Shown: positions 7,620 through 28,088 of the stretch, piece by piece
Position numbering within the stretch: the first letter of the stretch is position 1
Layout of the letters: every line of letters starts with the position of its first letter
The notes under the pieces: model-generated
The model's database searches: none
Seen by the model: only the letters and a program-made list of their open reading frames with translations
Told to the model about the DNA's origin: nothing
From: an uncultured Arenicella sp.
GTDB lineage: Bacteria > Pseudomonadota > Gammaproteobacteria > Arenicellales > Arenicellaceae
Length of the DNA: 64,000 nt
Assembly (NCBI GenBank): GCA_938048185.1
Contig: CALIVT010000003.1
Coordinates: forward strand, 1 to 64,000
Reading direction: 5' to 3'
Made by a program: the position numbers and the translations under genes

Positions 7620-8045
7620 CTACTGTTTTGCTGGTAGTGGATCAGTGACTAGACTAACGCTCTCTACGCCGGCATTTTTCAATAACACCATGGCTTGTAA
7701 GACATCATCATAAATCGCTTGCTTATCACCGCGCACCAAAAAATCGGTGGCCGGCTTCTCTCGAAACAACGCGGCAGCATACAGTTGCACCTCAGGCCCG
7801 GTCTTCTTCAGATCGTCTATATACAGCTGACCATCCGCATCCACCGTCAAAATAAACGGCTCGGGTGATTCCTCGTTTAATTCAACCGGGTTCGCGGTTG
7901 TTTGTGGCAACTCAATTTTCACGCCTTCAGTTAACAGCGGGGCGGTCACCATAAAAATGATGAGCAGCACCAGCATCACATCAATGTAGGGCACTACATT
8001 GATCTCGGCGATGGGTTTGCGTTTACGGTCGCGATATTTACTCAT
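7620..8045 (-). CDS. tolR: Tol-Pal system proton-channel subunit TolR
   Basis: ExbD/TolR family. A single membrane segment (about 17-36, VVPYIDVMLVLLIIFMVTAP) carries the conserved proton-binding Asp at residue 22. A periplasmic domain of about 100 residues follows. Length 141 aa is normal. It is 14 bp after tolQ. This Asp is a useful reference for the vWA membrane proteins at 15531-17605. Confidence 0.96.
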   Translation of the reverse strand: MSKYRDRKRKPIAEINVVPYIDVMLVLLIIFMVTAPLLTEGVKIELPQTTANPVELNEESPEPFILTVDADGQLYIDDLKKTGPEVQLYAAALFREKPATDFLVRGDKQAIYDDVLQAMVLLKNAGVESVSLVTDPLPAKQ

Positions 8046-8059
8046 AACTCAGCGCGCGA

Positions 8060-8827
8060 TTAACGTTCTTCAATCGCAAGCTGACGATTCACGATGCTCA
8101 CGAACTCTTCCATAAAAATTTCATATTTACCAACCAGTTTCTCAACTTCATGAGAATATCGGTTATACGCTATTACCGCCGGAATAGCGGCGAACAAACC
8201 CATGGCGGTTGCGATCAAGGCCTCGGCAATGCCTGGCGCCACACTGGCAATGGTCGCTTGCTGGGTAGAAGAACCTAACGAGATAAACGAGTTCATAATC
8301 CCCCACACAGTTCCAAACAGGCCGACGTAGGGCGAGGTAGAGCCCACGGTTGCAAGAAACGGAATTTGAGATTCAAGATGGTCTATCTCGCGGCCTAGTT
8401 CAACACGCATAGCGCGCTGCACGGCGTCAAGCAGATCATTATTATTGGCATAACCGCGTTCTGACAAGCGCTGATACTCGCGATAGCCGGCGACAAAAAT
8501 TTCGCTCATGCCCGACGCTTTTTTGGTTTCAGCGCCCCATTGATTGTACAGCGCCTGCATGCTGCCGCCCGACCAAAACTCACGCTCAAATTTGGCGGTT
8601 AATCTGCGCTCTTTCCGCAGACTAAAAAACTTCGAAAAAATTATTGACCAAGAGAACAGCGATGCAAGCAGCAACAGCAGCATCACCAACTGTACGGTTA
8701 TACTCGCCTCACTGATGAGCGAGATGATAGACATACTGTCAGCAGCGTGCGCACCGGCTGACTGACTGATGGCATCAGCCGCCGCGCCCAGTGTTTCGGC
8801 TTGAAGATCTTGATTTTCGTTTGGCAT
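8060..8827 (-). CDS. tolQ: Tol-Pal system proton-channel subunit TolQ
   Basis: MotA/TolQ/ExbB family inner-membrane channel. The family core LATVGSTSPYVGLFGTVWGI and the last membrane helix PGIAEALIATAMGLFAAIPA are intact. ATG at 8827 gives 255 aa, including about 30 polar residues before the first membrane helix, longer than usual. The frame is also open to TTG at 8851. A later ATG in front of SIISLISEAS would give the E. coli-like N terminus but has no good Shine-Dalgarno. Start uncertain, function not. Confidence 0.95.
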   Translation of the reverse strand: MPNENQDLQAETLGAAADAISQSAGAHAADSMSIISLISEASITVQLVMLLLLLASLFSWSIIFSKFFSLRKERRLTAKFEREFWSGGSMQALYNQWGAETKKASGMSEIFVAGYREYQRLSERGYANNNDLLDAVQRAMRVELGREIDHLESQIPFLATVGSTSPYVGLFGTVWGIMNSFISLGSSTQQATIASVAPGIAEALIATAMGLFAAIPAVIAYNRYSHEVEKLVGKYEIFMEEFVSIVNRQLAIEER

Positions 8828-8875
8828 TGTTAGTGTGTTCTCGGCATTCAATTCACTGATTTTCTAGCGCTAATT

Positions 8876-12627: not shown

Positions 12628-14070
12628 TTAGTCTTCGAGTTTTTCCTTACGCAATTTCTTGATCCACGTGCCCGGTTCCGCCTCACCTTTCGGGTAATAG
12701 CCGTTTAGTACACGCAGCGCAGTCTCTACATCTTGTCCGTCAAACCCCTTGGTTTGTCGCGCTAAGCTTGAAAATGATTGGCCCGGCTCTAAACGCTCGT
12801 AATAGAGCTTGGTGACCATCGTTGAGGTCTTGTCTTTCGGATTCATACGTCGAAAGCTACGAATGATGCCGACAAACGTCGCATCTTGCTTTGCGGTAAT
12901 CACGTTGTTTTTCGCAATGCCTTGGAAATGAAATGTATTCCTTGCAACCTTAGCAAGTGCGACACGCTGGGCAGGAACAGCGCCGAGCGTCCCTAAATCA
13001 CGCTGAGAATCCCGATGAATTTTCTCAGGGTTCAGCAAATTTGGATACTTTGCTTTAATTGCGTCCAGACTGCTTTGCTTCTTATCGACCGTGCGCTCAA
13101 TCTCAATTTTCATCTGTACGGTTTTATCCGCGTCCTTGAGAATAATCTTTGACCCTTTGAGTTCAAAACTCCAGGTTTCGGGACGCAAAAATGTTATCCC
13201 AAGCGTTTCGTTGCTGTACCGCTTGAAACCTTTCGGGTTCACTTTTGCATAACTGGGCCCGAAAATTAAGCCTTCTACGGCATCACGGTATTCATCGCGG
13301 CCAATAATGCTTTCGCCTGGGGGCAGTTCACCTGCGGTATCGATCACTCTCTGCAGACGTCGATCTTCGCGCGGATGGCTCGCCCGCAAGCCGTGGTGGG
13401 TCACGGTATTGGCACCCACACCTGCAACAAATTTCGAAACATCAAATACTTGAGACAAACCGGAGATTAGGGCGGTCGGTTCATAGCCAGCCTTGTACAT
13501 ATAACTGGCACCAAATTGATCGGCCTCTAATTCAGCCGCGCGGCGATACTTAGAGAAACTAACCTGATTTTGAGTGGCGATTGCATTGCCAACGCTACTG
13601 TTGCCCGCCAAGATACTGGCCAGCGTTGCCAATACACTCGAACCAATCTGTTTGCGGCGGCTCTCAGCTATATGCTGGCCAACGTTATGCCCTATTTCAT
13701 GGCCTATCACGCCAGCAAGCTCTGCTTCCGAGTTAAGCGCCATAAACAGACCGCGATCTATATAAACCACCGGAATGCCGATTACCGAGGCGCCTGGCTG
13801 AGGGTTATCACGGATAATAAAGGCATACTTACGCCCCGCGTGCGCGCTTTGGGCTAACACGCGCTCGCCCACTTTGGTGACGTATGCCTCTAGCTTTTGG
13901 TCACGATATTCAGAGAAAGGTTGCAGGTATTGAAGGTGTTTTTTCAGCTGCGACTTCGAGAGGTGTGCGAGCCTCGCGTCGACACCTCCTTGATCTGAGC
14001 GCTCTTTATTTTGATCCGCCAACGAAGTGACGCAATACAAAAGGATAATTAGAGGTAGAAAATATTTCAT
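12628..14070 (-). CDS. M48 family periplasmic metalloprotease
   Basis: 480 aa with a signal peptide (about 1-18). The zinc motif is HEIGHNVGQH (HExxH) around residue 124, and the third ligand is in AAELEADQFGASYM. This is the BepA/YfgC or LoiP type of periplasmic peptidase, which acts in outer-membrane protein quality control. A middle domain (TLGITFLRPETW) and a C-terminal region (LEPGQSFSSLARQTKG, possibly LysM-like) replace the TPR domain of BepA, so it is not BepA itself. It is the last gene of the vWA/ExbB-like cluster, 9 bp after a lipoprotein gene, and may process cluster proteins. Confidence 0.88.
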   Translation of the reverse strand: MKYFLPLIILLYCVTSLADQNKERSDQGGVDARLAHLSKSQLKKHLQYLQPFSEYRDQKLEAYVTKVGERVLAQSAHAGRKYAFIIRDNPQPGASVIGIPVVYIDRGLFMALNSEAELAGVIGHEIGHNVGQHIAESRRKQIGSSVLATLASILAGNSSVGNAIATQNQVSFSKYRRAAELEADQFGASYMYKAGYEPTALISGLSQVFDVSKFVAGVGANTVTHHGLRASHPREDRRLQRVIDTAGELPPGESIIGRDEYRDAVEGLIFGPSYAKVNPKGFKRYSNETLGITFLRPETWSFELKGSKIILKDADKTVQMKIEIERTVDKKQSSLDAIKAKYPNLLNPEKIHRDSQRDLGTLGAVPAQRVALAKVARNTFHFQGIAKNNVITAKQDATFVGIIRSFRRMNPKDKTSTMVTKLYYERLEPGQSFSSLARQTKGFDGQDVETALRVLNGYYPKGEAEPGTWIKKLRKEKLED

Positions 14071-14079
14071 TGTAAAAAA

Positions 14080-14755
14080 CTATTGATTCACCTTTAGGGC
14101 ATTCGGATCTTTGGCAAAGAAGCGTACCAACTGCTTCCCCATACCTTGACAGGCGTCACCTTGAACTTGGGCCAACAAAGGAATAGGTATCACGAACGCC
14201 GGCATGTATGACGTGCCTACGGCCTCGGTGCTAACGCGGCCGACCTCGTCGAATGTTTTTAAGTCCCAGATCGTAGTTTCGTAGTCGCTGGTGTCTTCCC
14301 AAGTGCCGAAACCAAAACAACCACCACCGCCTGGCCCAATTGAACAGGTCATGCTGCCTGACGAATTGGTTCGCTCGGTAGAGCCTTCAACCCAAACAAA
14401 GTAGCGAATGTTCATTGCATCTATTTTCTCAGCCACCAGCGGATTGTCTAACACCTTACGAAGCTTCTCGGGGTGCAATGGTGCTGTTCGAGCCTCGAAC
14501 CAAGGGTAAAACGCGTCAACAAATTCGGGCTCAGGAATAATACGAACATTTTGAGTGCCGCGTTGTAAACGCCCACCGATGCACGCTACCAACGAGCCTT
14601 CAGTTTGAATCTCAGCCGTTTGGTGACGCCCTAAGACGACCATTGCGTCGCCCTCGATAAGTTCGACGGTGTCTTTGAGGCGTACTTGATCGATGTTAAT
14701 TGTGGTACACGCTGATAGCACCAATAGATATGCGCTTAACGCAATTAATTTTAGA

Positions 14756-14769
<14 letters not shown>
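14080..14769 (-). CDS. Lipoprotein of unknown function
   Basis: 229 aa. The signal peptide ends in the lipobox LSAC. The mature part has several Cys residues (VACIGGRL, MTCSIGPGGGGCFGFG, GDACQGM) that could form disulfides in the periplasm, and a glycine-rich loop. I do not recognise the family. Its start overlaps the end of the preceding lipoprotein gene by 14 bp, so both are translated together as part of the vWA/ExbB-like cluster. Confidence 0.8.
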
Positions 14770-15530
<761 letters not shown>

Positions 15531-15541
<11 letters not shown>

Positions 15542-16529
15542 TATTAAGCCCTATAAATGTTCCGTTATTCTGCTCAGCCAGTTCGCGCATCAAAGTTGCG
15601 TAGCGCATTTGTGAGCTATTAATACCAGGGTCTTGCATCAACAAAACCGGAAAGCCAACCCCGTGTATGCGCACCAACGTATCACCTTTGCGGTTACGTT
15701 TGTTCAATTCTTCGACAATTTTTGTGACACGGCGAATGGATCGACCTTGGTAATCATCGCCCATTACATACAAACTTATTTTCTTGTTCTTATCATAATG
15801 CTGGCGAATAGCATTAGTAATGCCGCCTACCGGTGTTGAAGTACTGAACGCTGACCAAGTGGACAACTTACTGACAATGCTGCGACGACGACTGGGTGAG
15901 TCGGGTAGAAATTTACCGCGATAACTCGGGAACATATAAATACCCTCATTGTTCATCACCTGTATACCCTTAACCGTCGGATAGATCGCCAAGATGTTCC
16001 GGACCTCTCGAACCAAACGCCCCCAAGCGTTCGAGGTCATACTGCCAGAACTATCAATAATAAAAATAATATACTCCGAATCGACTGGAACGCCAGCTAT
16101 GTATTCGTTTGCCTTTTTCCGACCTTGCAACAAACGCTTCATTTCACGGGTGAGTGTTTGCAGCGCAATTTGCAAGTCTTCCGCCTGCGTGGCGTCTTCG
16201 GCACCTTGATCCTCGGAGCTTGGTTTACGCGAATTCAGTGTGTCAAACTCGCTACGCAGAATGGCAACGCGGCGCTTATCTTTACCCAGCTGTTCTTGTT
16301 TCGCGTTTAGTTCGGTTTCTAAAAAATTCACTTGGCCACGAATTTCAAACAGGCGCTCCTGCAATGCGCGCACCAAGCCTTTATCTTGAATTAGCGATTC
16401 TTCGAGCACCACCGGCGGATTAGGCCGCACGATAACCAGTAGCAACACGATGGCACCAAAGCCACAGCAAATAATATCCAAGAAGGATATGTTTGCATCT
16501 TCTAAGCCGCGACGACGCCTTCGACTCAT
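15531..16529 (-). CDS. Membrane-anchored von Willebrand A protein 2
   Basis: 332 aa from ATG 16529, which overlaps the stop of the previous vWA gene as ATGA; the frame is open to 16586, but that start lies inside the other gene. An Arg-rich N terminus (inside-positive) precedes one membrane segment, NISFLDIICCGFGAIVLLL, with Asp at residue 18. A coiled coil follows (about 45-110), then a vWA domain with the MIDAS motif DSSGSM. The domain would lie in the periplasm. It is paired with a second vWA gene of the same layout and an ExbB-like gene, which suggests an ExbD/TolR-like stator role; that is an inference. Confidence 0.87.
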
Positions 16530-17605
16530 GGCCAATCTCTCGCTGGTGTTATGTAGGAACCGCGGGTTTGAATCGCTAAGCGCCAAAAGGATGCCGCCGC
16601 GTATGGGTCGCCTTCGAGCGGCAATAAGAACGTATTCACCGGAATACCTGGAATAAGTGTCTTGATGGCCGACCGAAAAGTCCGCAGTCGCTCAATGCCG
16701 CTGATCGTGCCCGATTTAGGACTTTTATCGCCAAGAGTTGGTAGACCGTCGGTAATCAAAAATATGTTGTCGGGCTTAGGCGTCATCGCCATCGCCATTG
16801 CAAACACTTTGTGCATATTCGTGCCGTTCTCAGGCACTACCTTGCCAACACCTTGCACGGCTGAAGCGACGGATGCGCGATCACCCACTTCGTACCATTC
16901 ATTAACTTCGTTACCAAACACAGGCTTCACATCTTCGTTAAAGCTCAGCACTTGAAAGTCGCTAGACAATGGTAGGTTAGCGACAACCCATTGCGCAATC
17001 GCGAGTGTGCGCTGCCATTTTTCCGATTGCCGCTTAAGTGAATCACTCATGTTGCGGCGACGCAGAATATTAACAATGGTTTCATCGAGCATACTCGATG
17101 ACGCATCAACAAGAATAAGCACATTCTCACCACCAAGCTTAATACCGGTAAGGTATTGTCGTTCACCCTCGCCCGTAAATTCGTACGCTTTGTTACCCGC
17201 CGGCACGGTAGTTTCAAGTGCCTCTTTTTGTTTTTCAAGACGCGCAATTTTGGCTTTTAAGCCGGGCACGTCGATCACCGAGTCTGGTTGAATTTCTTCG
17301 AGTAAACTTTTGAGTTCCTTAATTTCTTCAGAAATTTTTCGCGCCAAACCTTGCGCGGTTACAGTTTCGTCGGTGACGTCACTAATCGTGTTGCGGATAC
17401 GAACTAAGTTTTTCTCGCCAACCAGAATTTCTTCTTCTAGCAAGCTAATTTCGGACAGGTCTTGCGGGTCTTGATTGGGAACCGGTGAATCAACCACGTG
17501 CTTTAGCAATAAGAAAATCAACACGGCGGCACCTAAGCCACAGGACATAATATCCAAAAACGACAGGCTAAAGGTTGACGTGTTGCGAATTTTCTTGCGT
17601 GCCAT
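16526..17605 (-). CDS. Membrane-anchored von Willebrand A protein 1
   Basis: 359 aa. A basic N terminus leads into a single membrane segment, SLSFLDIMSCGLGAAVLIFL, with Asp at residue 18 as in its neighbour. Residues 50-150 are predicted coiled coil (two Glu/Lys-rich stretches). The vWA domain starts at about residue 160 with MIDAS DASSSM and continues with ITDGLPTLGD. Orientation by charge places the vWA domain in the periplasm. It lies 18 bp after the Hsp70-like gene. The TM Asp is placed like that of TolR (PYIDVMLVLLIIF), which suggests a proton-coupled partner for the ExbB-like protein. Confidence 0.87.
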   Translation of the reverse strand: MARKKIRNTSTFSLSFLDIMSCGLGAAVLIFLLLKHVVDSPVPNQDPQDLSEISLLEEEILVGEKNLVRIRNTISDVTDETVTAQGLARKISEEIKELKSLLEEIQPDSVIDVPGLKAKIARLEKQKEALETTVPAGNKAYEFTGEGERQYLTGIKLGGENVLILVDASSSMLDETIVNILRRRNMSDSLKRQSEKWQRTLAIAQWVVANLPLSSDFQVLSFNEDVKPVFGNEVNEWYEVGDRASVASAVQGVGKVVPENGTNMHKVFAMAMAMTPKPDNIFLITDGLPTLGDKSPKSGTISGIERLRTFRSAIKTLIPGIPVNTFLLPLEGDPYAAASFWRLAIQTRGSYITPARDWP

Positions 17606-17623: not shown

Positions 17624-18940
17624 CTAAATCACCTGGATGACAGTAATTACACCGTCAGCCAAATGTGACCCTAAGCGGTCATTGGGCTTTAACATGGTAC
17701 GGCCCTCGTCATTCATGACGAACAATTGACCCCCGGTCAGCAAATTGTTGACGTTCGCTGCGCCGCCGACTTTCACGCTTAAGCTATTGTCGTGCATTGA
17801 TACTTCTGCCTCACTGATGGCAATCGCTTTGCCAGCGCTTAGTAAGTGCGTAGCGGCGTGTGATGCGACACCTAAGACGCTTGCTTCTTTGCTCGCGTTT
17901 GGCTTTGCGCCTGGCGTTGGCTGATGGCTCGTTTTGCGGTCTGCACTTGGTAACGATACGTCGGTTTGGTACACCACTGAACGTCCGTCACCGGCATCAC
18001 TTATCAGTGCGTCAATGTCGCGTTCAGGTGCGCCCTGCACTAACTCGATACCTGCAGCGTCTAAACCTGCGAGCGACGCACTGCCAAACGCAGAATTAAG
18101 ATCGATTAACGTTTTACCGGCACTGGCTTGTGCTAGGCGTTGAGTGAAGCCACTCAATAAAGCCTGCCACTCTTTTGTGTCTAATGAGGTGCTGTGCAAT
18201 TTACTTTGATGCTCGACGCCGATATTCGCTTTACCATGCGCGGCAATTTGCTCCGCAATTTTCGGCAGCTGATCAAATAATTGCTGCTCGGTGCTGGCGT
18301 CATGTAAAGGGTCAAAGCGATCATTCTGAATGAAGCTATGTTGCAAACCCTTCAACAGCGTTTCTTGCATAAGGTGTATGCCAACGTCTTGAATTATCTC
18401 GACCTCGCCTAAGGTCACCGAGCCATCAGCAACAGTAAGACGTGAACTTACAGTTTGATGTAACTGCACGTCATGATGAAGATAGTCTCCCTCATTAGCC
18501 TGGTCGGACGACAACGCACCCGATGCAAGCGCCAAGCTCGCTTTGTTTAGCAACCCTCTGATTCGCAAATCGCAGGCCTTAGCGACACCTAATAGCAATT
18601 GCAAGTTTTCGGACCGGTAATGGGACGGCACAACTAAGACCAAGTCGTCTAGATTAAACTGCTGCTTGAGTTGGCTTAAGTGTTGCCAAATCAAATCGGC
18701 TGCATGCCGCATACCGGCGATATTGCTACTGATGGCACTTTGGTCACACTGCATCCAATAGCGGTTATTGATCTCTTGAGGTGCCAGGCGACAGCGTTTT
18801 ATCGCTGAGCTCTGAGCATCGCCGCCGAGGTCAAAGTGTACCGACTCGTTAGCTAACCACGCATAACCTTGGCTCGCAAATTGCTCGCGCTCTTTTCGCA
18901 GCAGCAATTTATTGTCATTGATGTGAAGCACGTCGACCAT
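17624..18940 (-). CDS. Divergent Hsp70/actin-fold (ASKHA) protein
   Basis: 438 aa, no signal peptide, so cytosolic. Segments match the Hsp70 order: LVLVVPSHYRSENLQLLLGVAKA resembles the VPAYF...A helix, followed by LRIRGLLNKASLALA in the place of the NEPTAAALA motif, and VTLGEVEIIQDVGIHLMQETL in the place of the DTHLGGEDFD region. The first phosphate loop (DxGTTNS) is not recognisable and the key glycines are largely changed, so ATP binding is doubtful. It lies between the ExbB-like gene (5 bp) and vWA protein 1 (18 bp), which suggests that it acts with them on the cytosolic face. Family assignment is by my own alignment. Confidence 0.65.
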   Translation of the reverse strand: MVDVLHINDNKLLLRKEREQFASQGYAWLANESVHFDLGGDAQSSAIKRCRLAPQEINNRYWMQCDQSAISSNIAGMRHAADLIWQHLSQLKQQFNLDDLVLVVPSHYRSENLQLLLGVAKACDLRIRGLLNKASLALASGALSSDQANEGDYLHHDVQLHQTVSSRLTVADGSVTLGEVEIIQDVGIHLMQETLLKGLQHSFIQNDRFDPLHDASTEQQLFDQLPKIAEQIAAHGKANIGVEHQSKLHSTSLDTKEWQALLSGFTQRLAQASAGKTLIDLNSAFGSASLAGLDAAGIELVQGAPERDIDALISDAGDGRSVVYQTDVSLPSADRKTSHQPTPGAKPNASKEASVLGVASHAATHLLSAGKAIAISEAEVSMHDNSLSVKVGGAANVNNLLTGGQLFVMNDEGRTMLKPNDRLGSHLADGVITVIQVI

Positions 18941-18945
18941 GATAC

Positions 18946-19749
18946 TTAGCTCTGCAGATGTCTAATTAGATTGTGATCGCAGTAGTCCTGCGCTTCGAGA
19001 ACCATGCGCTCTTGCATCAATGTTATTTGGTGCATTAAAAACATGATTACGATACTGATCAACAGCGCCACAAAGGTAGAGTTAAATGCCACCCCTAAGC
19101 TCGCCGTTACCGCGGCGATGTTACCCGCAACCGCTTCATGCGCATTACCTAGGGCGGTGCCAATACCCCGGACGGTGCCGATAAACCCAATTGAGGGAAT
19201 TGCCCAGGTTATGTAACGAACCATCGAGAGTTCTGAATCAAGACGATCGGCTTCGGTGTCGCATAAATCACGCACAACGTTTGACACGTCGGCCACCGAG
19301 CCAGTGGAGCCATAACGATTCAGCGCGCCACGCAGTGCACGCGGCAATAAGAAGCGACGCTCCGGCTCTGGCAGTGCCTCTAAGGGTCGGGCTAATTTTC
19401 GCGCATCTTCGGGCAACACCCTGCGACCTTCTTCAATACTAATAAGGGGCTGGCTTAACATACGGCGCTGCGCGCCTACGCCTTGGGCTTTAAGCCCCAT
19501 GATTGCCATCACCCACAGCATTAGTATAAAACACGACTCTTGCTCGTAATCTTTCAGCACCACCCATGCCGAACGCTCAATGCTAACTATTTCACCAGAT
19601 GCCTCTTGCTCGGCGATCGCTTGCTGCTCAGCCGCAAGCACCGCTTCAGCATTAGGCCTAACCAAACCAACATAAATGGTATGCACCACGACGAACGATA
19701 ATATCAAGGCAACAATTTGATAGAAAAATTCTGATTTTTGAAGTTTCAT
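18946..19749 (-). CDS. MotA/TolQ/ExbB-family proton channel protein
   Basis: 267 aa with about four membrane segments (around residues 8-28, 70-88, 180-200, 220-245). The family core is visible in AIPSIGFIGTVRGIGTALGNA, comparable to TolQ PYVGLFGTVWGI, and in TASLGVAFNSTFVALLISIV. These proteins form the proton-conducting pentamer of Tol, Exb, Mot and Zorya machines. No exbD, tolR or motB follows. Instead the next membrane proteins in the operon are two vWA proteins with an Asp in their TM helix, the likely partners. Confidence 0.9.
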   Translation of the reverse strand: MKLQKSEFFYQIVALILSFVVVHTIYVGLVRPNAEAVLAAEQQAIAEQEASGEIVSIERSAWVVLKDYEQESCFILMLWVMAIMGLKAQGVGAQRRMLSQPLISIEEGRRVLPEDARKLARPLEALPEPERRFLLPRALRGALNRYGSTGSVADVSNVVRDLCDTEADRLDSELSMVRYITWAIPSIGFIGTVRGIGTALGNAHEAVAGNIAAVTASLGVAFNSTFVALLISIVIMFLMHQITLMQERMVLEAQDYCDHNLIRHLQS

Positions 19750-19887: not shown

Positions 19888-19926
19888 GTTAGATATCAGC
19901 GTTAGATATCAACGTTAGATATCAAC
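19888..19926. repeat. 13-bp tandem repeat, three copies
   Basis: Three consecutive copies of GTTAGATATCARC (plus strand). The last copy covers the stop codon of the small gene starting at 20178, so the gene 3' end has been duplicated downstream. On the coding strand each unit contains TAA. Confidence 0.9.
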
Positions 19927-20178
19927 AGGAAAAGGCACAGGTAAATCTTCAGAAATCTCTTCACTAGGTTTGAAGACCTTTTTCGGCGGTTTGGCATTAC
20001 TTTTTTCCTCTTCGGCCTTTTTTTCGGATCGTGCTCGCGTGTTCGCAGACTCGTCGGACTTGTTCTGCTCGCCCGCACTTGTCTCGCTGCGCTCAGTAGC
20101 GCTATCAGTTTGGCCAATGGCAACTATCGACAACGAAAAAGCAAGCACGGACACACAAAGGGCTAATGATAATTTCAT
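19915..20178 (-). CDS. Small secreted charged protein
   Basis: 87 aa. A signal peptide of about 21 residues ends near VAIGQ. The mature 65 residues are Ser/Glu/Lys-rich and end in EEISEDLPVPFPVDI. No family is recognised. The gene starts 1 bp after the PEGA/FGE-like gene and precedes the ExbB-like gene by 165 bp, so it belongs to the cluster. It is probably an unstructured periplasmic accessory. Confidence 0.7.
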   Translation of the reverse strand: MKLSLALCVSVLAFSLSIVAIGQTDSATERSETSAGEQNKSDESANTRARSEKKAEEEKSNAKPPKKVFKPSEEISEDLPVPFPVDI

Positions 20179-20179
20179 G

Positions 20180-22330
20180 TTATTTCTTCTTATTCAATCC
20201 AGCATAGCGCGCAATGCGAAAACCTATGTCATGCTTACCCTTGGCGGAATAGTCTCGGTAGGCCAAACGTAACTGCGGCAAATGACCCTTAGCCCAACTC
20301 GCGCCACGAACCACATGGAATTCGCCAATGTCTGGGCCAATCGGGTCGCGCAGCGCTCGCGAGCCCTTTAACTCACTGTTGCCTTTAGAGCTATACCAGT
20401 CGTTGACCCACTCCGAGGCGTTACCACCAATGTCAAACAAACCGTGATGGTTCGCGCCAAAGCGGCCAACCGGCGACGGGCCTTTATAACCATCATCGTA
20501 GTCGCTAAGTGTAAACGCGAGTATGTCGGCTGCCTTTTTATCAGCAAAATTGCCAACTCGTTTATTCGCCGCAATTGTTTTGGAATTACCCCAAGGATAC
20601 GTCATGGTGGCGCCATCTTTATTACGCGCTAACCAAGCCCATTCAACCTCAGTTAGCAGACGATAGCCATTTGCGTTCTTTATATTGCCAGAAATAAAAC
20701 CTTTAGTGGTCTTATAAAATGGATCAAGCCCTTCTTTCTTGCTCAACCAATTACAGTAGCGTGCCGCATCTTGCCAACTGATATTTACCACTGGTGCTTT
20801 TTGGGCGTCTAGACTCTTAGCTTTATAATTCCCGGAATTATGCGAACCCCTAAAAGCTCGAAATTGCTTGTTAGTCGTTTCGTGCAACGCCACATAGAAC
20901 GGTTTGGTAAGCTCAGCTTGATACACAACCTCGTTCGCGCGCCGACCATCCTCTCTACGCGATGACCCGAGCGCTACCGAACCAAGCTGTTTAAACAGCT
21001 TCATCTGGTGGCCCGCGTTATTAGTGTATGTGTCGGGCACCTGAGCCCAATAATGTTGCTCTTCAGTAAGCAAGCTAACACTGATAATTTGAGTATTTCG
21101 GCGCGACGGAATGATGTCATTATTTTGAGTAACGTAACCCGGTTTGCGCACGCTGATCTGATGCGGCAAAGTGTTTAAATTTAGGGTTTGACTGCCGCGT
21201 CCGCGTGCCACACCATCGACGTAAACTTGTGCGTCACTCGGTGACACACTGATGCGTACAGGAATAATATCCGCACTTAGGCTGACCGATTTTTCCACCG
21301 CCTGCTCGGGTTCTAAGTTTAAGGTTTGTTCCGCAAGCTCAAAGCCCGCCTTATATATCTGCACCTGCTGTTGCGTGTTCGGCGCGACACTCAATTTCAT
21401 CGGTGTAACACCACGAAACTCATTATTCAAAATAACCGCAGCGCCAACTGGGGTCGAACTTAAATTCAATTCGCCGTCGGCCGGAATAAGCTCGATGGTG
21501 GGAATGGTCAAGTTTTCACCCGCAACCACGCCGATTTCTTGAGTGAAGGTTTTAAATTTATCCGCCTGTAAGCTGAGCTGACGAGTACCTTCTTCGACTT
21601 TCAGCAGCAAAGGTGTGACGCCAACGTCTACACCGTCAATGGCTACGCTTGCGCCCGCCGGTTGCGAGCTAACCTGGTATTCCGCCCATGCGGGCTGCAA
21701 GGTCAACGTTACACTCTGCGTCTCGCCCCGACCCTTTACCAACAGGCTTTGTGAAATAGGTCGATAGAGGGGCGCGTCGATGGTAATTTGACGTTTACCC
21801 GCAGCAATATTTTGAATCGTACCCGGCAGTGTCGCAAACGCAACACCGTCTATCAGAACATCAGCCTTAAGTGATTCGCCACCCTGATTACTAATTTTGA
21901 TCTCTAAGTTACCCGGTAAGCGCGTTAACTCGATTTCAAACTGTTGATGACGCTCGGAGCCAACTTGCAAGCTTTGATCTACTGGCGTAAACCCGTCGGC
22001 AGCAAGTCGCACACGGTGCTCTCCGGGCAACAACAGCACACGATTCCCAAGCGGCAGCTTGAGCATCGTGTCGATATTGATCTCGGCCGATTGTGCGAAA
22101 AATTTTGCAGGGTCACTTAAATCTACTTTAATCGCACGCACTTCGATACTGCGTGCAAAGGTTATAAACCCGATAAATAAAAGACTCAGAAGCGCAATAA
22201 AAAATAACCCAAAATGTGCGGCTGTTAATTTAAAGCGGGTAACGGCAATCTCGCCCGTTGGTGCTTGAAACTCGGCGGCACTAATCTGTGCGTTGTTTAA
22301 GGCACTATTATTGTTAATCGGCTGATTCAT
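20180..22330 (-). CDS. Membrane PEGA-repeat protein with inactive FGE-sulfatase (SUMF1) domain
   Basis: 716 aa from ATG 22330, placed 1 base after the upstream stop; a GTG eight codons earlier is possible. One membrane segment lies at about residues 37-60. At least three PEGA domains follow (VSSQPAGASVAIDGVDVG, LSSTPVGAAVILNNEFRG, ISVSPSDAQVYVDGVARG), with two more degenerate copies before them. From about residue 440 it is a formylglycine-generating-enzyme-like domain (NISWQDAARYCNWLS, LLTEVEWAWLAR, FDIGGNASEWVNDW, VVRGASWAKG, IGFRIARYAG). The two catalytic Cys of true FGE, expected after RGASW, are absent, so it should not make formylglycine and may bind a ligand or cell wall. Confidence 0.88.
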   Translation of the reverse strand: MNQPINNNSALNNAQISAAEFQAPTGEIAVTRFKLTAAHFGLFFIALLSLLFIGFITFARSIEVRAIKVDLSDPAKFFAQSAEINIDTMLKLPLGNRVLLLPGEHRVRLAADGFTPVDQSLQVGSERHQQFEIELTRLPGNLEIKISNQGGESLKADVLIDGVAFATLPGTIQNIAAGKRQITIDAPLYRPISQSLLVKGRGETQSVTLTLQPAWAEYQVSSQPAGASVAIDGVDVGVTPLLLKVEEGTRQLSLQADKFKTFTQEIGVVAGENLTIPTIELIPADGELNLSSTPVGAAVILNNEFRGVTPMKLSVAPNTQQQVQIYKAGFELAEQTLNLEPEQAVEKSVSLSADIIPVRISVSPSDAQVYVDGVARGRGSQTLNLNTLPHQISVRKPGYVTQNNDIIPSRRNTQIISVSLLTEEQHYWAQVPDTYTNNAGHQMKLFKQLGSVALGSSRREDGRRANEVVYQAELTKPFYVALHETTNKQFRAFRGSHNSGNYKAKSLDAQKAPVVNISWQDAARYCNWLSKKEGLDPFYKTTKGFISGNIKNANGYRLLTEVEWAWLARNKDGATMTYPWGNSKTIAANKRVGNFADKKAADILAFTLSDYDDGYKGPSPVGRFGANHHGLFDIGGNASEWVNDWYSSKGNSELKGSRALRDPIGPDIGEFHVVRGASWAKGHLPQLRLAYRDYSAKGKHDIGFRIARYAGLNKKK

Positions 22331-22331
22331 A

Positions 22332-23975
22332 CTAATTGGTCGCAACTCCGGCACTGACTACCGGCGTAGTACAAGCAATACTAAAGCTTTGAACATCCTC
22401 GCCGTTGGCACGCAATTCAATTTCCTTGCGCTCATCTCTATAACCCAAACGCTTACCACTGACGACATATCGCCCTGGCTTAAGCGCCAACTTCTTACTA
22501 CTGAACTTACCAAGATTAATCCGCTTTGACCCGGCCTTGACTAAACTTACATCGGTAAGCTGGTTCGAACTAAAACTAACCTTAATTGTGCTGTCGAGCT
22601 GTTTGAGCGAGGCCTCTAACTGTGCAACTTGACGACTGAGGACCTTGCCTTTTACCTTAATCGCGCGTGCATCGGCCAATACCTTCTCGGCACGCGCTCG
22701 TTGGGTGGCGCGGCTGAGCGCTAGTGGGTCCGCGAGCACATCCACAATTGATTGATTCAGCTCTTTACGAGCCTCGCTGCGAATTTTACCGAGCTTCGCG
22801 CCAACTTGGTTTGGGTCGCGCTGCAAAACGGCTTGATAAGTGCTTAGCGCGCTGGCCCACTCCTCCGTTTGCTCTAAATTTTTCGCGTTGCTAATCAGCG
22901 AGCTTAACGACGAGCGCTTATCGGACGCAAGTGATTGGCGATAGGCTGAATTCGCGGTAGTGTCATTCGGCCTAATTTTAAGCGCTTGCGAAAACCCAGA
23001 TTTTGCGGCGCCGTAACGCCCAGCAAATAAAGAGTTAAAGCCGATGCTCATTGCATCTCGATATTTCTTATCGGCGATAAGCTCGGCAACGCGTTGCGCA
23101 CCACGCTTTGCTTGCTCAGTACGTGGATCTAGCGCTAGCGCCTGTTGATATTTTTGATCCGCTAGCGTTAAGTTCTCTAGTTTATCGGTGTTTGCGAAGG
23201 CCTGTTCGTCTATGTCTGCCGTCCTAAGCAAATCGAGCACTTGATTCAGCGTGTTAGCTCGATCAATACCTCGTAGCGCCGGAATATGATTTTGATCTAG
23301 CGTCAGTGCCTCTTGGAATTTTTCGCGCGCCAATTCAGTTTTACCCTGCTCAATCGCTTGCAAGCCTTGCGTAACAAGGCTTTTTAGCACGCTCGGAATG
23401 AGGGCATCTAGGCTCTGCATTTGATCAAGCGCGGCTTGATAGGTTTTTACCGCGTTTACAAAATCTTTACGCTTATAAAATTCATCTCCTTCAGCGGCTT
23501 GCTGCAACGCAAGACTATAACCTTCGGCGCCCCAGTCGCTTACGTTTCGGCCTTCAAGCTCCTTTTTTACTTTCAACAAGTCGGCTAAAATATCTTGCGA
23601 ATCAGTGCGCGCCTGTTTGCGCCGGCTCTCATCCCATGGTGCAGCTTCATCGTCATCGCTAACAACACTTTGTCCTACGCTGGTGCTTCCTTGAGATGAA
23701 ACAACGGTGTTTTTATTCGGCGTGTTGGGTGCTGGCGTAAGCAGTACAAACAGCAATGCAGCAAGGCCTAGCAAGCCGAAGACGCATAACATTAGGTTAA
23801 ACTGTGAGTACCACCAAGGCGCGTCGGCGCGTGCGAGCAACAAAGAACCCGAGCCGCTCGATGTGTCGCTGCGCGAAAAGGCGGCATTTGTTGGCGCGGC
23901 GTTGCCAGCCGCCGGGGCGACAAAGTCGCTGGCTTCGATGGCCTGCTTGCCATCGATATCATTCGAGTCAACCAT
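22332..23975 (-). CDS. Membrane TPR protein with PEGA-like C terminus
   Basis: 547 aa. One membrane segment at about residues 57-82 (FNLMLCVFGLLGLAALLFVL) is followed by a short acidic linker and helical TPR-like repeats (EGDEFYKRKDFVNAVKTYQ, IEQGKTELAREKFQEAL, LFAGRYGAAKSGFSQAL, TEEWASALSTYQAVL). The last 90 residues look like a PEGA beta domain (LKPGRYVVSGKRLGYRDERK). The TPR part is presumably periplasmic and could scaffold the cluster. It lies 3 bp after a lipoprotein gene and 1 bp before the PEGA/FGE gene. Confidence 0.82.
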   Translation of the reverse strand: MVDSNDIDGKQAIEASDFVAPAAGNAAPTNAAFSRSDTSSGSGSLLLARADAPWWYSQFNLMLCVFGLLGLAALLFVLLTPAPNTPNKNTVVSSQGSTSVGQSVVSDDDEAAPWDESRRKQARTDSQDILADLLKVKKELEGRNVSDWGAEGYSLALQQAAEGDEFYKRKDFVNAVKTYQAALDQMQSLDALIPSVLKSLVTQGLQAIEQGKTELAREKFQEALTLDQNHIPALRGIDRANTLNQVLDLLRTADIDEQAFANTDKLENLTLADQKYQQALALDPRTEQAKRGAQRVAELIADKKYRDAMSIGFNSLFAGRYGAAKSGFSQALKIRPNDTTANSAYRQSLASDKRSSLSSLISNAKNLEQTEEWASALSTYQAVLQRDPNQVGAKLGKIRSEARKELNQSIVDVLADPLALSRATQRARAEKVLADARAIKVKGKVLSRQVAQLEASLKQLDSTIKVSFSSNQLTDVSLVKAGSKRINLGKFSSKKLALKPGRYVVSGKRLGYRDERKEIELRANGEDVQSFSIACTTPVVSAGVATN

Positions 23976-23978
23976 CAG

Positions 23979-25298
23979 CTACAGCTCGTCTAACTCTGAT
24001 TGAGCAGGCACACGGGTTACTGCTTGAGTATTTGAAGAATTGGTTTTCAGAGTAGACCTTTCAGTCGCTCTCGAGTCAGTGCTTTGCGATTCTGCTTCGC
24101 CTGAAGAATCGCTGTCACCTTCCTCCAAACGAAACATTTCCGATAGGATACGCCGCCATTCTTGGTATTGATCGTCTACGGTACCACTTAAGGTAATACT
24201 TCTGTCTTGCAGATCTACAATGCTTGGCTCTAGTTCGGTTTCAAGCGACGCTGATAACTCGCGTAACGTCGAGCTATGCGACAGCGCTTCTTCACTTTTT
24301 AAGAAGCTATTAGCGAACACGCGCGCGCCGCCAATAATACCAATATGACCCGCGCCCCGCGTTGTACGGCTATTACCGTTAGTCGCGGCGGCGATGCCAC
24401 CGGCTATGGCGGCAACGCCGGCGATTTTCTCGCGCCTTGCTTGCTCTTTTAATTGACGGGCATACAGCACTTCTTTATAGCTCAGCTTACGCCACTCTTG
24501 ATACGGGCCTTCCATTTTTCGATTAAAGGCTCGGTAGTAATCTTGTACCACGTCGAGGAATAGATCGTTTCGAGAACGAATTCTATCAACGCGTTGCATC
24601 ATCGGGTCACTGCTGGCCGGTACGCGAAGCAATGAAAGCTGACCCTGTTCGTCGGTACTAACAAACTCGTTAAATGCGTCCGGCACAAAATCGCGCGCAA
24701 ATAATACTTTCGAGATACTACGAATTTCAACAATTTGCTCATCACTTAAATTCGCACGATAGTTAAACAGATCGTTTGCAATTTCGTTGAACGTCGCTTG
24801 AAAAGGGTCGCCAGGCAAATTGACTTCGGGGTTGTACGCATAGGCACTGGCGCGCTGCTCGTACTCCTTTGCGAACCATTCGGTGCCACTCGCATCGTTC
24901 GCGCGGACAAGTAATTTAACAACTTCACCATTGGATTCAATCAACGTACCACTAACGGTAACATCCATTCCAAGGCGCTCGCCAGGAAGCACACGCACCA
25001 AGCCCCAGGCGTTACTGGTTTCCAGAGTTTTCTTTAATTGGTTAGTAAACCAAACCGACTCGCTTTGGCGCACATTGGAGTAGTCAACTTGGTCTGAATC
25101 TAAATCAACTAAACCCGGATCAAAAAGCACAACACCCACGTCGAGAAACAACTGTTCATCGATCAACTGCTCTTGGCTTTCACTGACTCGTTCAATCGAT
25201 ACCTGTTTGGTCTCGTGGTACTCGAAGGTCGTGCACGCACCAAGCAACGCAGTACACAATATGACAGCCGCTCGTAGGTAATAATTCAAGTGCGCCAC
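23979..25298 (-). CDS. Lipoprotein of unknown function with glycine-rich hydrophobic segment
   Basis: 439 aa. The lipobox is LGAC. The first half includes LFDVGVVLFDPGLVD-like secretin/lipoprotein-style sequence and LVRANDASGTEWFAKEY. In the middle a short hydrophobic Ala/Gly stretch (KIAGVAAIAGGIAAATNG) follows a basic segment and could touch a membrane. The C terminus is Ser/Thr-rich and probably disordered. The family is not recognised. It starts directly after the stop of the acidic lipoprotein gene. Confidence 0.78.
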   Translation of the reverse strand: MAHLNYYLRAAVILCTALLGACTTFEYHETKQVSIERVSESQEQLIDEQLFLDVGVVLFDPGLVDLDSDQVDYSNVRQSESVWFTNQLKKTLETSNAWGLVRVLPGERLGMDVTVSGTLIESNGEVVKLLVRANDASGTEWFAKEYEQRASAYAYNPEVNLPGDPFQATFNEIANDLFNYRANLSDEQIVEIRSISKVLFARDFVPDAFNEFVSTDEQGQLSLLRVPASSDPMMQRVDRIRSRNDLFLDVVQDYYRAFNRKMEGPYQEWRKLSYKEVLYARQLKEQARREKIAGVAAIAGGIAAATNGNSRTTRGAGHIGIIGGARVFANSFLKSEEALSHSSTLRELSASLETELEPSIVDLQDRSITLSGTVDDQYQEWRRILSEMFRLEEGDSDSSGEAESQSTDSRATERSTLKTNSSNTQAVTRVPAQSELDEL

Positions 25299-26357
25299 CT
25301 ATTGCTTTTTGTAGTTGTAATATTCCTCCCAAAGCTTCTTTTTCAGCTCAGGGTCGGTTTCATTTTCAGCAGCTTCACGAATTTGGCGGGCAACGATATC
25401 GTCATTCTTTCTTAAATCAGCTAAATCGGGCGCGTCATCTTGTTTTTGATTCTCGTCAGCTTGTTGCTGTGATTTGGATTCGCCTTCACGCGCTACACCA
25501 CTGTCAGCACTCTGACCACCCGCGCTCTGCGAGTCAGATGAACTGCTAGACGCGCCTTGCTCGCCTTGTTGTTGACCGCTTGCAGACGGTTTACGTTGAC
25601 CCTTGGCAACGCCATCTTCTGTCTCGTCGTACTCATCAAAAGCGCCTTCGTTATCAAAGTCACCGCTGCCGCCAGCATCACCTTCTTCGTTGGCGCGCCC
25701 CTCAGCATACTCTTGCTCACGTTCGATTTCTTCGTCGAAATCGCCCAGGGTTTCGTCTAATTCTTTCTCGAGTTCTTCCAATTCTTTCTCGCTCAAGCCG
25801 CCTTTATCTTCAAACGAAGGCTCTTCAAACTCTCCCTTAGCCGTAGCGTCAGTTTTAGGCTCTTCAAAACTCACATCGTTTTCGCCAGCGTTTGCACTGC
25901 CACCGTCATCACCCTCTTCTTCCCAGCCTTCAGGAACATCACCTTGTGCGCCGTCTTTGCCCTCGCCTTTTTCGCCGTCGCCGTCGCCCTCTCCCTTGCC
26001 TTTACCTTCTTCGCCTTCTTCGCCTTCTTCACCTTTAGTGTCACCGCTCTCACCACTGCTACCTGATGACGGTTTTCCCGGAGGTGTCGGTGGGGTTGGT
26101 AAGCCGGGCGGGGTTGGCGCGCCTGCGCCACCGCCCCCAACAGGCGGTACAGGCAATGGCAGTGATGGCCCACTGGGACCGCCACCACCGGACGGCCCAA
26201 TAGGTTGTGCGCATGCAGTTACAAGGGCGATAGCACCCAGGAGCAACGCTAACTTTAGAGCAGGCACCGGGCGCAGCCCGCTTGGTGCGACGGTGCTCTG
26301 GACTATGCCCTCTTTGATAATACTCATATTACTTGTCACGTTACATCCCAATTTCAT
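25299..26357 (-). CDS. Acidic low-complexity lipoprotein
   Basis: 352 aa. A hydrophobic segment ends in the lipobox VTAC. Next comes a Gly/Pro-rich tether (about 50-95), then about 200 residues dominated by Glu, Asp, Gly and Lys (EGEEGEEGKGKGEGDGDGEK). The C-terminal 45 residues are different and look folded and helical: VARQIREAAENETDPELKKK then LWEEYYNYKK. ATG at 26327 is an alternative start giving a shorter n-region. It could be a stalk-like anchor in the periplasm. Function unknown; it lies 30 bp after the TPR/TonB-C-like gene. Confidence 0.75.
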   Translation of the reverse strand: MKLGCNVTSNMSIIKEGIVQSTVAPSGLRPVPALKLALLLGAIALVTACAQPIGPSGGGGPSGPSLPLPVPPVGGGGAGAPTPPGLPTPPTPPGKPSSGSSGESGDTKGEEGEEGEEGKGKGEGDGDGEKGEGKDGAQGDVPEGWEEEGDDGGSANAGENDVSFEEPKTDATAKGEFEEPSFEDKGGLSEKELEELEKELDETLGDFDEEIEREQEYAEGRANEEGDAGGSGDFDNEGAFDEYDETEDGVAKGQRKPSASGQQQGEQGASSSSSDSQSAGGQSADSGVAREGESKSQQQADENQKQDDAPDLADLRKNDDIVARQIREAAENETDPELKKKLWEEYYNYKKQ

Positions 26358-26387: not shown

Positions 26388-28088
26388 CTAGCCGGTATTT
26401 TTGCTTGAATTACCGCCACGAACTTTGATTTTTATATCTTGTTGGTGGCCGAAGCTTCTGACTAACTTACCACTATCTATAATCGGGCGAAACTTCATTT
26501 GCCGTGCAATCCTCTTCGCTCGAGATAATGACCAGCCCTTGGTGCCATCTGACGCCTCTCTTTGTATGCTTTTAACATTGCCATCGGTGTCAATATCAAA
26601 GGTAAGTGGCACTAATTGAAATTCGTCGTTCGAGCCAAATGTCTCAGCGCTTGCACGTGTGTCCGGGCGCTTGTTAGCAAATCTAAACGCGGGCAACAAT
26701 TGTGGCTGTTCAAAACTAGCGATTAAGGGATGGCCCAGCGGCAATGCATCCGACGCATCCCATGCTTGTTCATAGTAGCGTATCGCGCTGACTCTTCGAC
26801 CGAAAAGTATATTCAGGTCACCTAAATTCAGTAAAGCTTGCACCCTGTGCTCTTGTTCATTTTCTTTTTCAGCTTTAGCAAGGTATTCCCTTAAGTATCG
26901 TTCACTGGTACTGAAAGAGCCGCCTAGTGAGGTGCTAGACTTAGCGCGTTGATCGAGCTCTAGAAATGAACGTTGACGAGTCGTCTCTTGACTACGCGAG
27001 CGATCAACCTCTGCCTGGATACGGCTTTTCAAAAAATGTGAGTAAGCAAGCTCGCCGTAGGGCATAAATAATTCAGCCAACGGCCGGTCACCGTAACGAT
27101 TAACGGCCAGCCTAAAGTAGAGGGTTGCCTTACTTAGGTTGGATAAATTGTAGTCAGTGACAACGGGATTTTCTAAATACAGATCAAGAAAATGGTTCCC
27201 AAGACGCACCACCATATCAAATGAATAGTCATCCGCTTGCTCAGGAATTTTCTTCTCAAGCCAAATAATTCGGCGTAAATTGCCTTCTAATTCTTCAGTA
27301 TTTTTAAGCGCTAAATTCATTTCAAATAAGGCGCGCAGCACTGGCCGTTGCTCAATACTATTAACGCCGTTGTTCACCTTGGCGATGTGCAGAGCATTAA
27401 CCAACATTTTACGTGCTTCATCGAGTCGGCCCGCTTGTTTGAGCAATGTACCGTAACTTAGATAAACCTCACCTAGGGCTTCGCTAAACGCTTCTTCGGT
27501 TTCTAGCAGCTTGCGCACTTGCTGGAACTGACGCTCAAGCGCATCACGCAATTCCGGGCTTAAGTCAATAACCGGCCTTGTAGGAATGCCCCTAGTGGCC
27601 TGCACATTCTCGTTGCTAGCAGCGAGTTCGGGGTCTAACTCGGCGTTAGATTCAGTGCTCTCGGGATTAAACTCGGCACCAACGTCTTGGTTTTCGTTTG
27701 GTGCTTGTTGGGCCTGTAATTTTTGCCGCTCGCTAGCCGCCTGAATATCAAGCGTTGGCGGCGCTGCTGTTTCAGCCTGCGTGCTTTCACTTATCGCTGT
27801 GTCTCTTTCTTTTTCGCGAGCCACAGCGCTTTGGTTTTCGCCAGCCGCAGCGCTTTGGTTTAGGTCCCAACCTGTCGCGTTTTTAGCGTCGGCGATTGAC
27901 TCACTTTGGTCTTGAGCAATACCTGTTTGATGGCCAGCGAAAAAGAGAGCAAGAAGCAGCAGCGATTTTCGGCAACTGTTGGCCCGCACACCCGCCCCCT
28001 CGTAACCAGGATTGGCACGCGGATTGGCTTCGCGAAACGCCATTGCATGGATGCGTTTAAGCAACAAATCGGAAGTTTGGTCAGACAT
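26388..28088 (-). CDS. Secreted TPR protein with TonB-C-like C-terminal domain
   Basis: 566 aa. A hydrophobic signal segment at about 41-58 (KSLLLLALFFAGHQTGIAQ) is preceded by an unusually long basic leader. A later start, at the ATG of MAFREANP, would shorten it. Residues 60-180 are Gln/Glu/Asn-rich. Helical repeats (LGEVYLSYGTLLKQAGRLDE, LLNLGDLNILFGRRVSAIRY) span about 195-460. The last 85 residues (LTFDIDTDGNVKSIQRE, then MKFRPIIDSGKLV) match the TonB C-terminal pattern of a beta strand with a GxV turn and FRP. It is the first gene of the cluster; the 163 bp upstream hold a perfect 19-bp inverted repeat. Confidence 0.82.
   Translation of the reverse strand: MSDQTSDLLLKRIHAMAFREANPRANPGYEGAGVRANSCRKSLLLLALFFAGHQTGIAQDQSESIADAKNATGWDLNQSAAAGENQSAVAREKERDTAISESTQAETAAPPTLDIQAASERQKLQAQQAPNENQDVGAEFNPESTESNAELDPELAASNENVQATRGIPTRPVIDLSPELRDALERQFQQVRKLLETEEAFSEALGEVYLSYGTLLKQAGRLDEARKMLVNALHIAKVNNGVNSIEQRPVLRALFEMNLALKNTEELEGNLRRIIWLEKKIPEQADDYSFDMVVRLGNHFLDLYLENPVVTDYNLSNLSKATLYFRLAVNRYGDRPLAELFMPYGELAYSHFLKSRIQAEVDRSRSQETTRQRSFLELDQRAKSSTSLGGSFSTSERYLREYLAKAEKENEQEHRVQALLNLGDLNILFGRRVSAIRYYEQAWDASDALPLGHPLIASFEQPQLLPAFRFANKRPDTRASAETFGSNDEFQLVPLTFDIDTDGNVKSIQREASDGTKGWSLSRAKRIARQMKFRPIIDSGKLVRSFGHQQDIKIKVRGGNSSKNTG

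Follow-up and report, generated by a model that had tools for sequence, protein, structure and literature searches.

Which partner does an ExbB-like motor subunit use when no ExbD gene lies beside it, and what do two membrane-anchored vWA proteins encoded close by contribute? These questions are raised by a locus in a 64,000-nucleotide stretch of DNA from an uncultured Arenicella sp. (contig CALIVT010000003.1, positions 1 to 64,000; hereafter the window). We consider it very likely that the locus encodes a proton-driven 5:2 motor with a pentamer of the ExbB-like protein as its wheel and the two proteins, vWA1 and vWA2, as its (hetero)dimeric axle, a motor that would do work on an outer-membrane complex. 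The general idea of a vWA axle motor is not new, as it was predicted in the section on TPH-vWA proteins of a recent paper (PMC12204202; Mol Biol Evol 2025 msaf138, Fig. 4c,d). New here are a test of Asp conservation that is independent of the motif, the exact co-occurrence of the ExbB-like and vWA1 families and the lone status of this ExbB in its genome, as well as a collinear cassette of about 13 genes with an Hsp70-fold protein and a probably non-catalytic FGE-like part (Table 1).

Table 1. Features of the cassette, listed in cassette order with their positions in the window
Feature	Position	Strand	Basis and remarks
TPR566, no predicted TM	26388..28088	(-)	cassette member; name from sequence reading
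Acidic low-complexity lipoprotein (VTAC)	25299..26357	(-)	cassette member
Lipoprotein, lipobox LGAC, no Pfam family	23979..25298	(-)	syntenic 61/80
TPR protein, single TM	22332..23975	(-)	PF07719 and others; syntenic
PEGA repeats + FGE-sulfatase-like domain, single TM	20180..22354	(-)	Pfam; Cys scan
Small protein, 87 aa, N-terminal signal/TM	19915..20178	(-)	syntenic 57/80
ExbB-like motor subunit	18946..19749	(-)	PF01618 E=4.1e-13; probably 4 TM; invariant P185, T192, T225
438-aa protein, Hsp70-like fold + probable FHA	17624..18940	(-)	AlphaFold, VIA, hmmsearch; 71/80 loci
vWA1	16526..17605	(-)	basic N terminus, Asp18 TM helix, coiled coil, vWA domain with MIDAS DASSSM
vWA1 TM helix, residues 16-34	17504..17560	(-)	hydropathy; Asp18 codon 17552-17554
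vWA2	15531..16529	(-)	architecture as vWA1; MIDAS DSSGSM
vWA2 TM helix, residues 16-34	16428..16484	(-)	predicted TM; Asp18 codon 16476-16478
Lipoprotein (LSGC), downstream	14756..15541	(-)	syntenic 72/80
Lipoprotein (LSAC), downstream	14080..14769	(-)	syntenic 72/80
M48-family peptidase	12628..14070	(-)	PF01435 E=7.5e-24; found in 56/80 loci

The vWA pair and its membrane helix

An earlier note on this DNA, made from the sequence alone, had described two vWA proteins in the span 15531-17605 with FLDI at residues 16-19, a basic N terminus and a single TM helix, and in all these points it was right. In both proteins (vWA2 being counted from the ATG at 16529) the basic N terminus leads into the sole membrane helix, predicted at residues 16-34 and with Asp18 at its start, which is followed by a coiled-coil stretch and the vWA domain. 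The TolR encoded in the window carries Asp22, within PYIDVML, in the equivalent place, as had also been noted. The start of vWA1 is MARKKIRNTSTFSLSFLDIMSCGLGAAVLIFLLLKH, and the protein matches PF13519 (Pfam, E=2.8e-6). The N terminus of vWA2 is MSRRRRRGLEDANISFLDIICCGFGAIVLLLVIV when read from the ATG at 16529; this ATG shares the bases ATGA with the vWA1 stop and is most likely the start, the listed TTG start of the open reading frame at 16586 being unlikely. The vWA fold of vWA2 was recognised by Foldseek, and the profiles of vWA2 and vWA1 align with an hhalign probability of 99.4.

A profile scan with vWA1 of about 85,000 species genomes gave at least 574 relatives; the 80 loci retained all have two divergent vWA paralogues. 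The two genes are adjacent; of 71 loci measured, 32 show the 4-nt ATGA overlap and another 15 an overlap of 1 base. Because one of the patterns of the vWA1 scan held the Asp motif itself, the fair tests of Asp18 are vWA2, which was not used in the scan, and the loci reached via the ExbB-like gene. The conservation check proposed in the earlier note gave an invariant residue: all homologues with the N terminus carry Asp18, 118/118 for vWA1 (79/79, 14/14 and 25/25 by three sampling routes) and 116/116 for vWA2 (80/80, 14/14 and 22/22). The residue is kept in the 25 vWA1 and 22 vWA2 sequences reached solely through the ExbB-like gene, in the unlinked pair of one genome (G658) and in members that belong to a second class within the phylum. 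Of 84 control ORFs from the same loci, all outside the cassette and with one TM at the N terminus, only 1 has an Asp inside a comparable uncharged stretch.

Conservation in both proteins peaks in the helix as a whole, where the mean column identity over residues 14-32 is 0.91 in vWA1 and 0.88 in vWA2, against 0.64 and 0.73 for their vWA domains. The anchors of two other single-pass proteins of the cassette, PEGA and TPR, reach only 0.40 and 0.37; an ordinary anchor would not be expected to behave as the vWA helix does. Its conservation is not limited to one helix face, and by inspection the N termini of vWA1 and vWA2 lack the S-x-H-x-L-x-S motif. In one draft genome (L183, G757:C244) vWA1 is split by stops or frameshifts, by assembly error or decay.

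The earlier note had called this helix TolR-like, which stands for the position of the Asp; detectable homology to TolR was not found. A Pfam scan gave no PF02472 match to vWA1 or vWA2, and a helix-only hhalign comparison with ExbD/TolR gave probabilities of 5.5% and 1.3%, within the range of the controls, among which a signal peptide scored equally high. The helix as a detectable homologue of ExbD/TolR was accordingly rejected, and the likeness to TolR is positional. "TolR-like" would thus denote position and a proposed function, with descent not proven.

The MIDAS motifs DASSSM (vWA1) and DSSGSM (vWA2), which had been described as intact, retain D-x-S-x-S in 80/80 members of each family. The MIDAS residues D167, S169, S171, T262 and D286 of vWA1 are kept in 79-80 of 80 sequences, and the second MIDAS loop of vWA2 has a conserved Ser and no clear Thr. 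Conservation of the MIDAS residues in both members of the pair makes it probable that their vWA domains bind a ligand, the simplest candidate being a partner from the cassette.

The ExbB-like subunit and its probable partner

The ExbB-like protein scores 49.6 bits against PF01618 (cut-off 22.9). Its invariant P185, T192 and T225 align with P138, T145 and T178 of Escherichia coli TolQ, of which Thr145 and Thr178 together with TolR Asp23 form the reported proton site of TolQR (PMC12583513). In a profile comparison with solved structures TolQ was the only one among the relevant matches (E ~0.03), and in the colinear alignment both threonines fall into place. The subunit seems to have four TM segments rather than three, three being predicted from hydropathy and the fourth from the TolQ alignment.

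The genome contains six MotA/ExbB loci and five ExbD loci. Every ExbD adjoins another ExbB gene, and the ExbB-like gene of the cassette is the only one of the six without an adjacent ExbD. An ExbD profile found no ExbD inside the cassette across the 80 loci, and between the cassette genes of the window there is no space for another gene of ExbD size. The ExbB-like gene was found in 75/80 loci; most of the remaining loci stop at contig edges and one (L062) is rearranged. In a sample of 369 Gammaproteobacteria genomes, the 31 that have the ExbB-like family are exactly the 31 that have the vWA1 family, a co-occurrence that is partly expected for linked genes inherited as one cassette. In G658 the ExbB-like gene lies alone on one contig and vWA1/vWA2 lie on another (L182, L198), so that the partnership is kept though the genes are unlinked; in its relatives L184 and L185 the gene order is vWA1-vWA2-ExbB. 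Motor partner, missing ExbD and co-occurrence together support the earlier proposal that the vWA pair stands where ExbD, TolR or MotB stand in other motors.

The cassette and its relation to known systems

The cassette is collinear over the 80 loci as far as the contigs reach, with some genes missing in some loci, in the order TPR, acidic lipoprotein, lipoprotein, TPR, PEGA/FGE, small protein, ExbB-like, Hsp70-like, vWA1, vWA2, lipoprotein, lipoprotein, M48 peptidase. It is present in about 8% of the sampled Gammaproteobacteria genomes, including the cultured marine genera Microbulbifer, Pseudoalteromonas, Thalassomonas and Bowmanella. One genome of the same genus contains, besides the usual cassette, a second and divergent one (L148, G004:C7:37000-56900; lipoprotein-TPR-PEGA/FGE-ExbB-like-vWA1-vWA2) with the helix motifs FIDAMSCGLG and FLDVISCGFG. 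In the rearranged locus (L062:619-3528) the upstream half is replaced by a gene that reads as DNA methyltransferase/restriction-like, possibly by rearrangement or in a chimeric contig. In this genus some 7 kb separate the cassette from the tolQ/tolR genes of the Tol-Pal system (window 7620-8851), and among the 80 loci such a same-strand downstream pair was seen only in Arenicella-like ones.

Pfam gave only spurious low-complexity matches for the lipoproteins scanned. FGE catalysis needs a Cys pair, and GldK is a structural FGE relative without it. The Cys scan found a single conserved Cys (Cys534) in the PEGA/FGE-like protein, and with the catalytic pair missing enzyme activity is unlikely; the domain is probably non-catalytic and structural. 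The AlphaFold model of the 438-aa protein (pLDDT 88.5) shows an Hsp70 nucleotide-binding fold over residues 1-318 (VIA Z 25.5, rmsd 3.5 over 304 residues to DnaK 2v7y; Foldseek E 5.6e-16). No Pfam family, HSP70 included, matched any of 37 members; hmmsearch gave weak matches to Ssz1 and to FHA domains, and the protein has a probable C-terminal FHA domain and, with no predicted TM, would be cytoplasmic. Its gene usually lies between those for the ExbB-like protein and vWA1. The ATP-binding and phosphate loops of the protein look degenerate, and many cassettes with motor and vWA genes lack it, so it is accessory.

In the TPH-vWA section of PMC12204202 (seed Idiomarina loihiensis), TPH-vWA proteins with TolQ-like pentamers are described from Proteobacteria, as heterologous pairs of TM-tethered vWA genes beside tolQ without tolR/exbD, with a conserved helix Asp, a conserved Thr ring and no SHLS motif; AF3 models of this kind set the helix inside the TolQ-like pentamer. 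The window pair shares the heterologous vWA pairing, the linked tolQ-like gene without tolR/exbD, the helix Asp, the Thr ring and the absence of SHLS. Because it has every feature of that description that could be tested here, the pair is best regarded, on descriptive features, as a new member of the TPH-vWA family. The same section does not mention a wider cassette, an Hsp70-like/FHA protein or a PEGA/FGE protein, and in the text of other open-access literature we found no description of the cassette either.

Compared with TolQ-TolR and ExbB-ExbD, the cassette has in common a PF01618 subunit with two pore threonines and a one-helix partner with an Asp just inside the helix. However, the periplasmic part of this partner is a coiled coil and a vWA domain instead of the ExbD/TolR fold, the motor subunit seems to carry one more TM at its N terminus, and no TolA or TonB gene was recognised in the cassette. 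With GldL-GldM and GldK of type IX secretion and gliding it shares a motor with a long periplasmic axle and an FGE-sulfatase-like protein, which gave a match to the GldK model (E=4.2e-24) that lies far below the cut-off of that model and may reflect the shared FGE fold only. In contrast to that system, vWA stands in place of the GldM periplasmic domains, and the FGE domain forms one membrane-anchored protein with PEGA repeats. The comparison with Zorya-type motors made in the earlier note holds for the general class, a MotA-like wheel with a single-helix axle as in ZorAB, and fails for the proteins themselves: among six cassette proteins scanned there was a weak match to the ZorA model (12.6 bits, E=0.012) and none to ZorB or any other Zorya protein, and membership of the Zorya defence systems was rejected.

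Alternative readings and a proposed mechanism

The vWA proteins might instead be force transducers at the side of the motor, like TolA and TonB, with a distant ExbD or TolR supplying the axle. Five ExbD-family genes are available in the genome, and the first family in PMC12204202 comprises such TolA/TonB-like vWA transducers, which resemble the window pair in being TM-tethered vWA proteins adjoining a TolQ-like gene. Those transducers, however, carry the SHLS motif and accompany tolR-like genes, and the pair here does neither; each other ExbB-like locus of the genome has its own nearby ExbD, the vWA helices carry the Asp of an axle, and their conservation extends beyond one face, all of which makes this arrangement improbable. 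Similarly doubtful is a non-rotary device, in which the vWA helices do lie in the pentamer and serve as a sensor or ion channel, gated by the PMF, which reports the envelope state via the Hsp70-like/FHA protein. The position of that protein between motor and axle genes in 71/80 loci and its degenerate loops would suit such a role, yet many cassettes retain the motor and vWA genes without it, and mechanical work is considered to be what other motors of this class perform (PMC9389320). That Asp18 is a structural or assembly residue of an ordinary anchor and the ExbB-like neighbour incidental would agree with the lack of profile similarity to ExbD; it is scarcely credible given an Asp invariant in more than 230 sequences and in both paralogues, the exact co-occurrence over 369 genomes and a helix conserved far beyond other anchors.

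In the preferred reading, the vWA axle, the ExbB-like protein would form a pentameric wheel with vWA1 and vWA2 in its pore, where the Asp18 residues would load and unload a proton against the ring of Thr192 and Thr225. Proton flow would drive a rotation that runs through the coiled coil to two periplasmic vWA domains, and their MIDAS sites may grip a cassette partner, be it the PEGA/FGE-like protein, the TPR protein or the outer-membrane lipoproteins. The proton motive force would in this way be put to work on an outer-membrane complex. The ATGA overlap in many loci and the strict pairing suggest equal amounts of vWA1 and vWA2 and perhaps a mixed dimer; one vWA1 and one vWA2 per axle, rather than two homodimers, we infer from these features only.

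We infer the cellular role to be proton-driven force transmission to an outer-membrane complex. A wider proposal, which we hold somewhat less probable than its opposite, is that the cassette encodes a whole undescribed trans-envelope machine. In it, the axle, a vWA heterodimer whose two MIDAS sites differ, would turn in the ExbB-like pentamer, the Hsp70-fold/FHA protein would tend the cytoplasmic side, and a complex of PEGA/FGE-like, TPR and lipoproteins would be driven at the outer membrane, perhaps as a new secretion, export or surface-remodelling system. The data, which were not selected by the motif, support the existence of vWA-built axles in the proton-driven 5:2 motor class. As a widely conserved and defined set of genes, the cassette allows genetic tests of the load, of the partner proteins and of what an axle of two different subunits is for.
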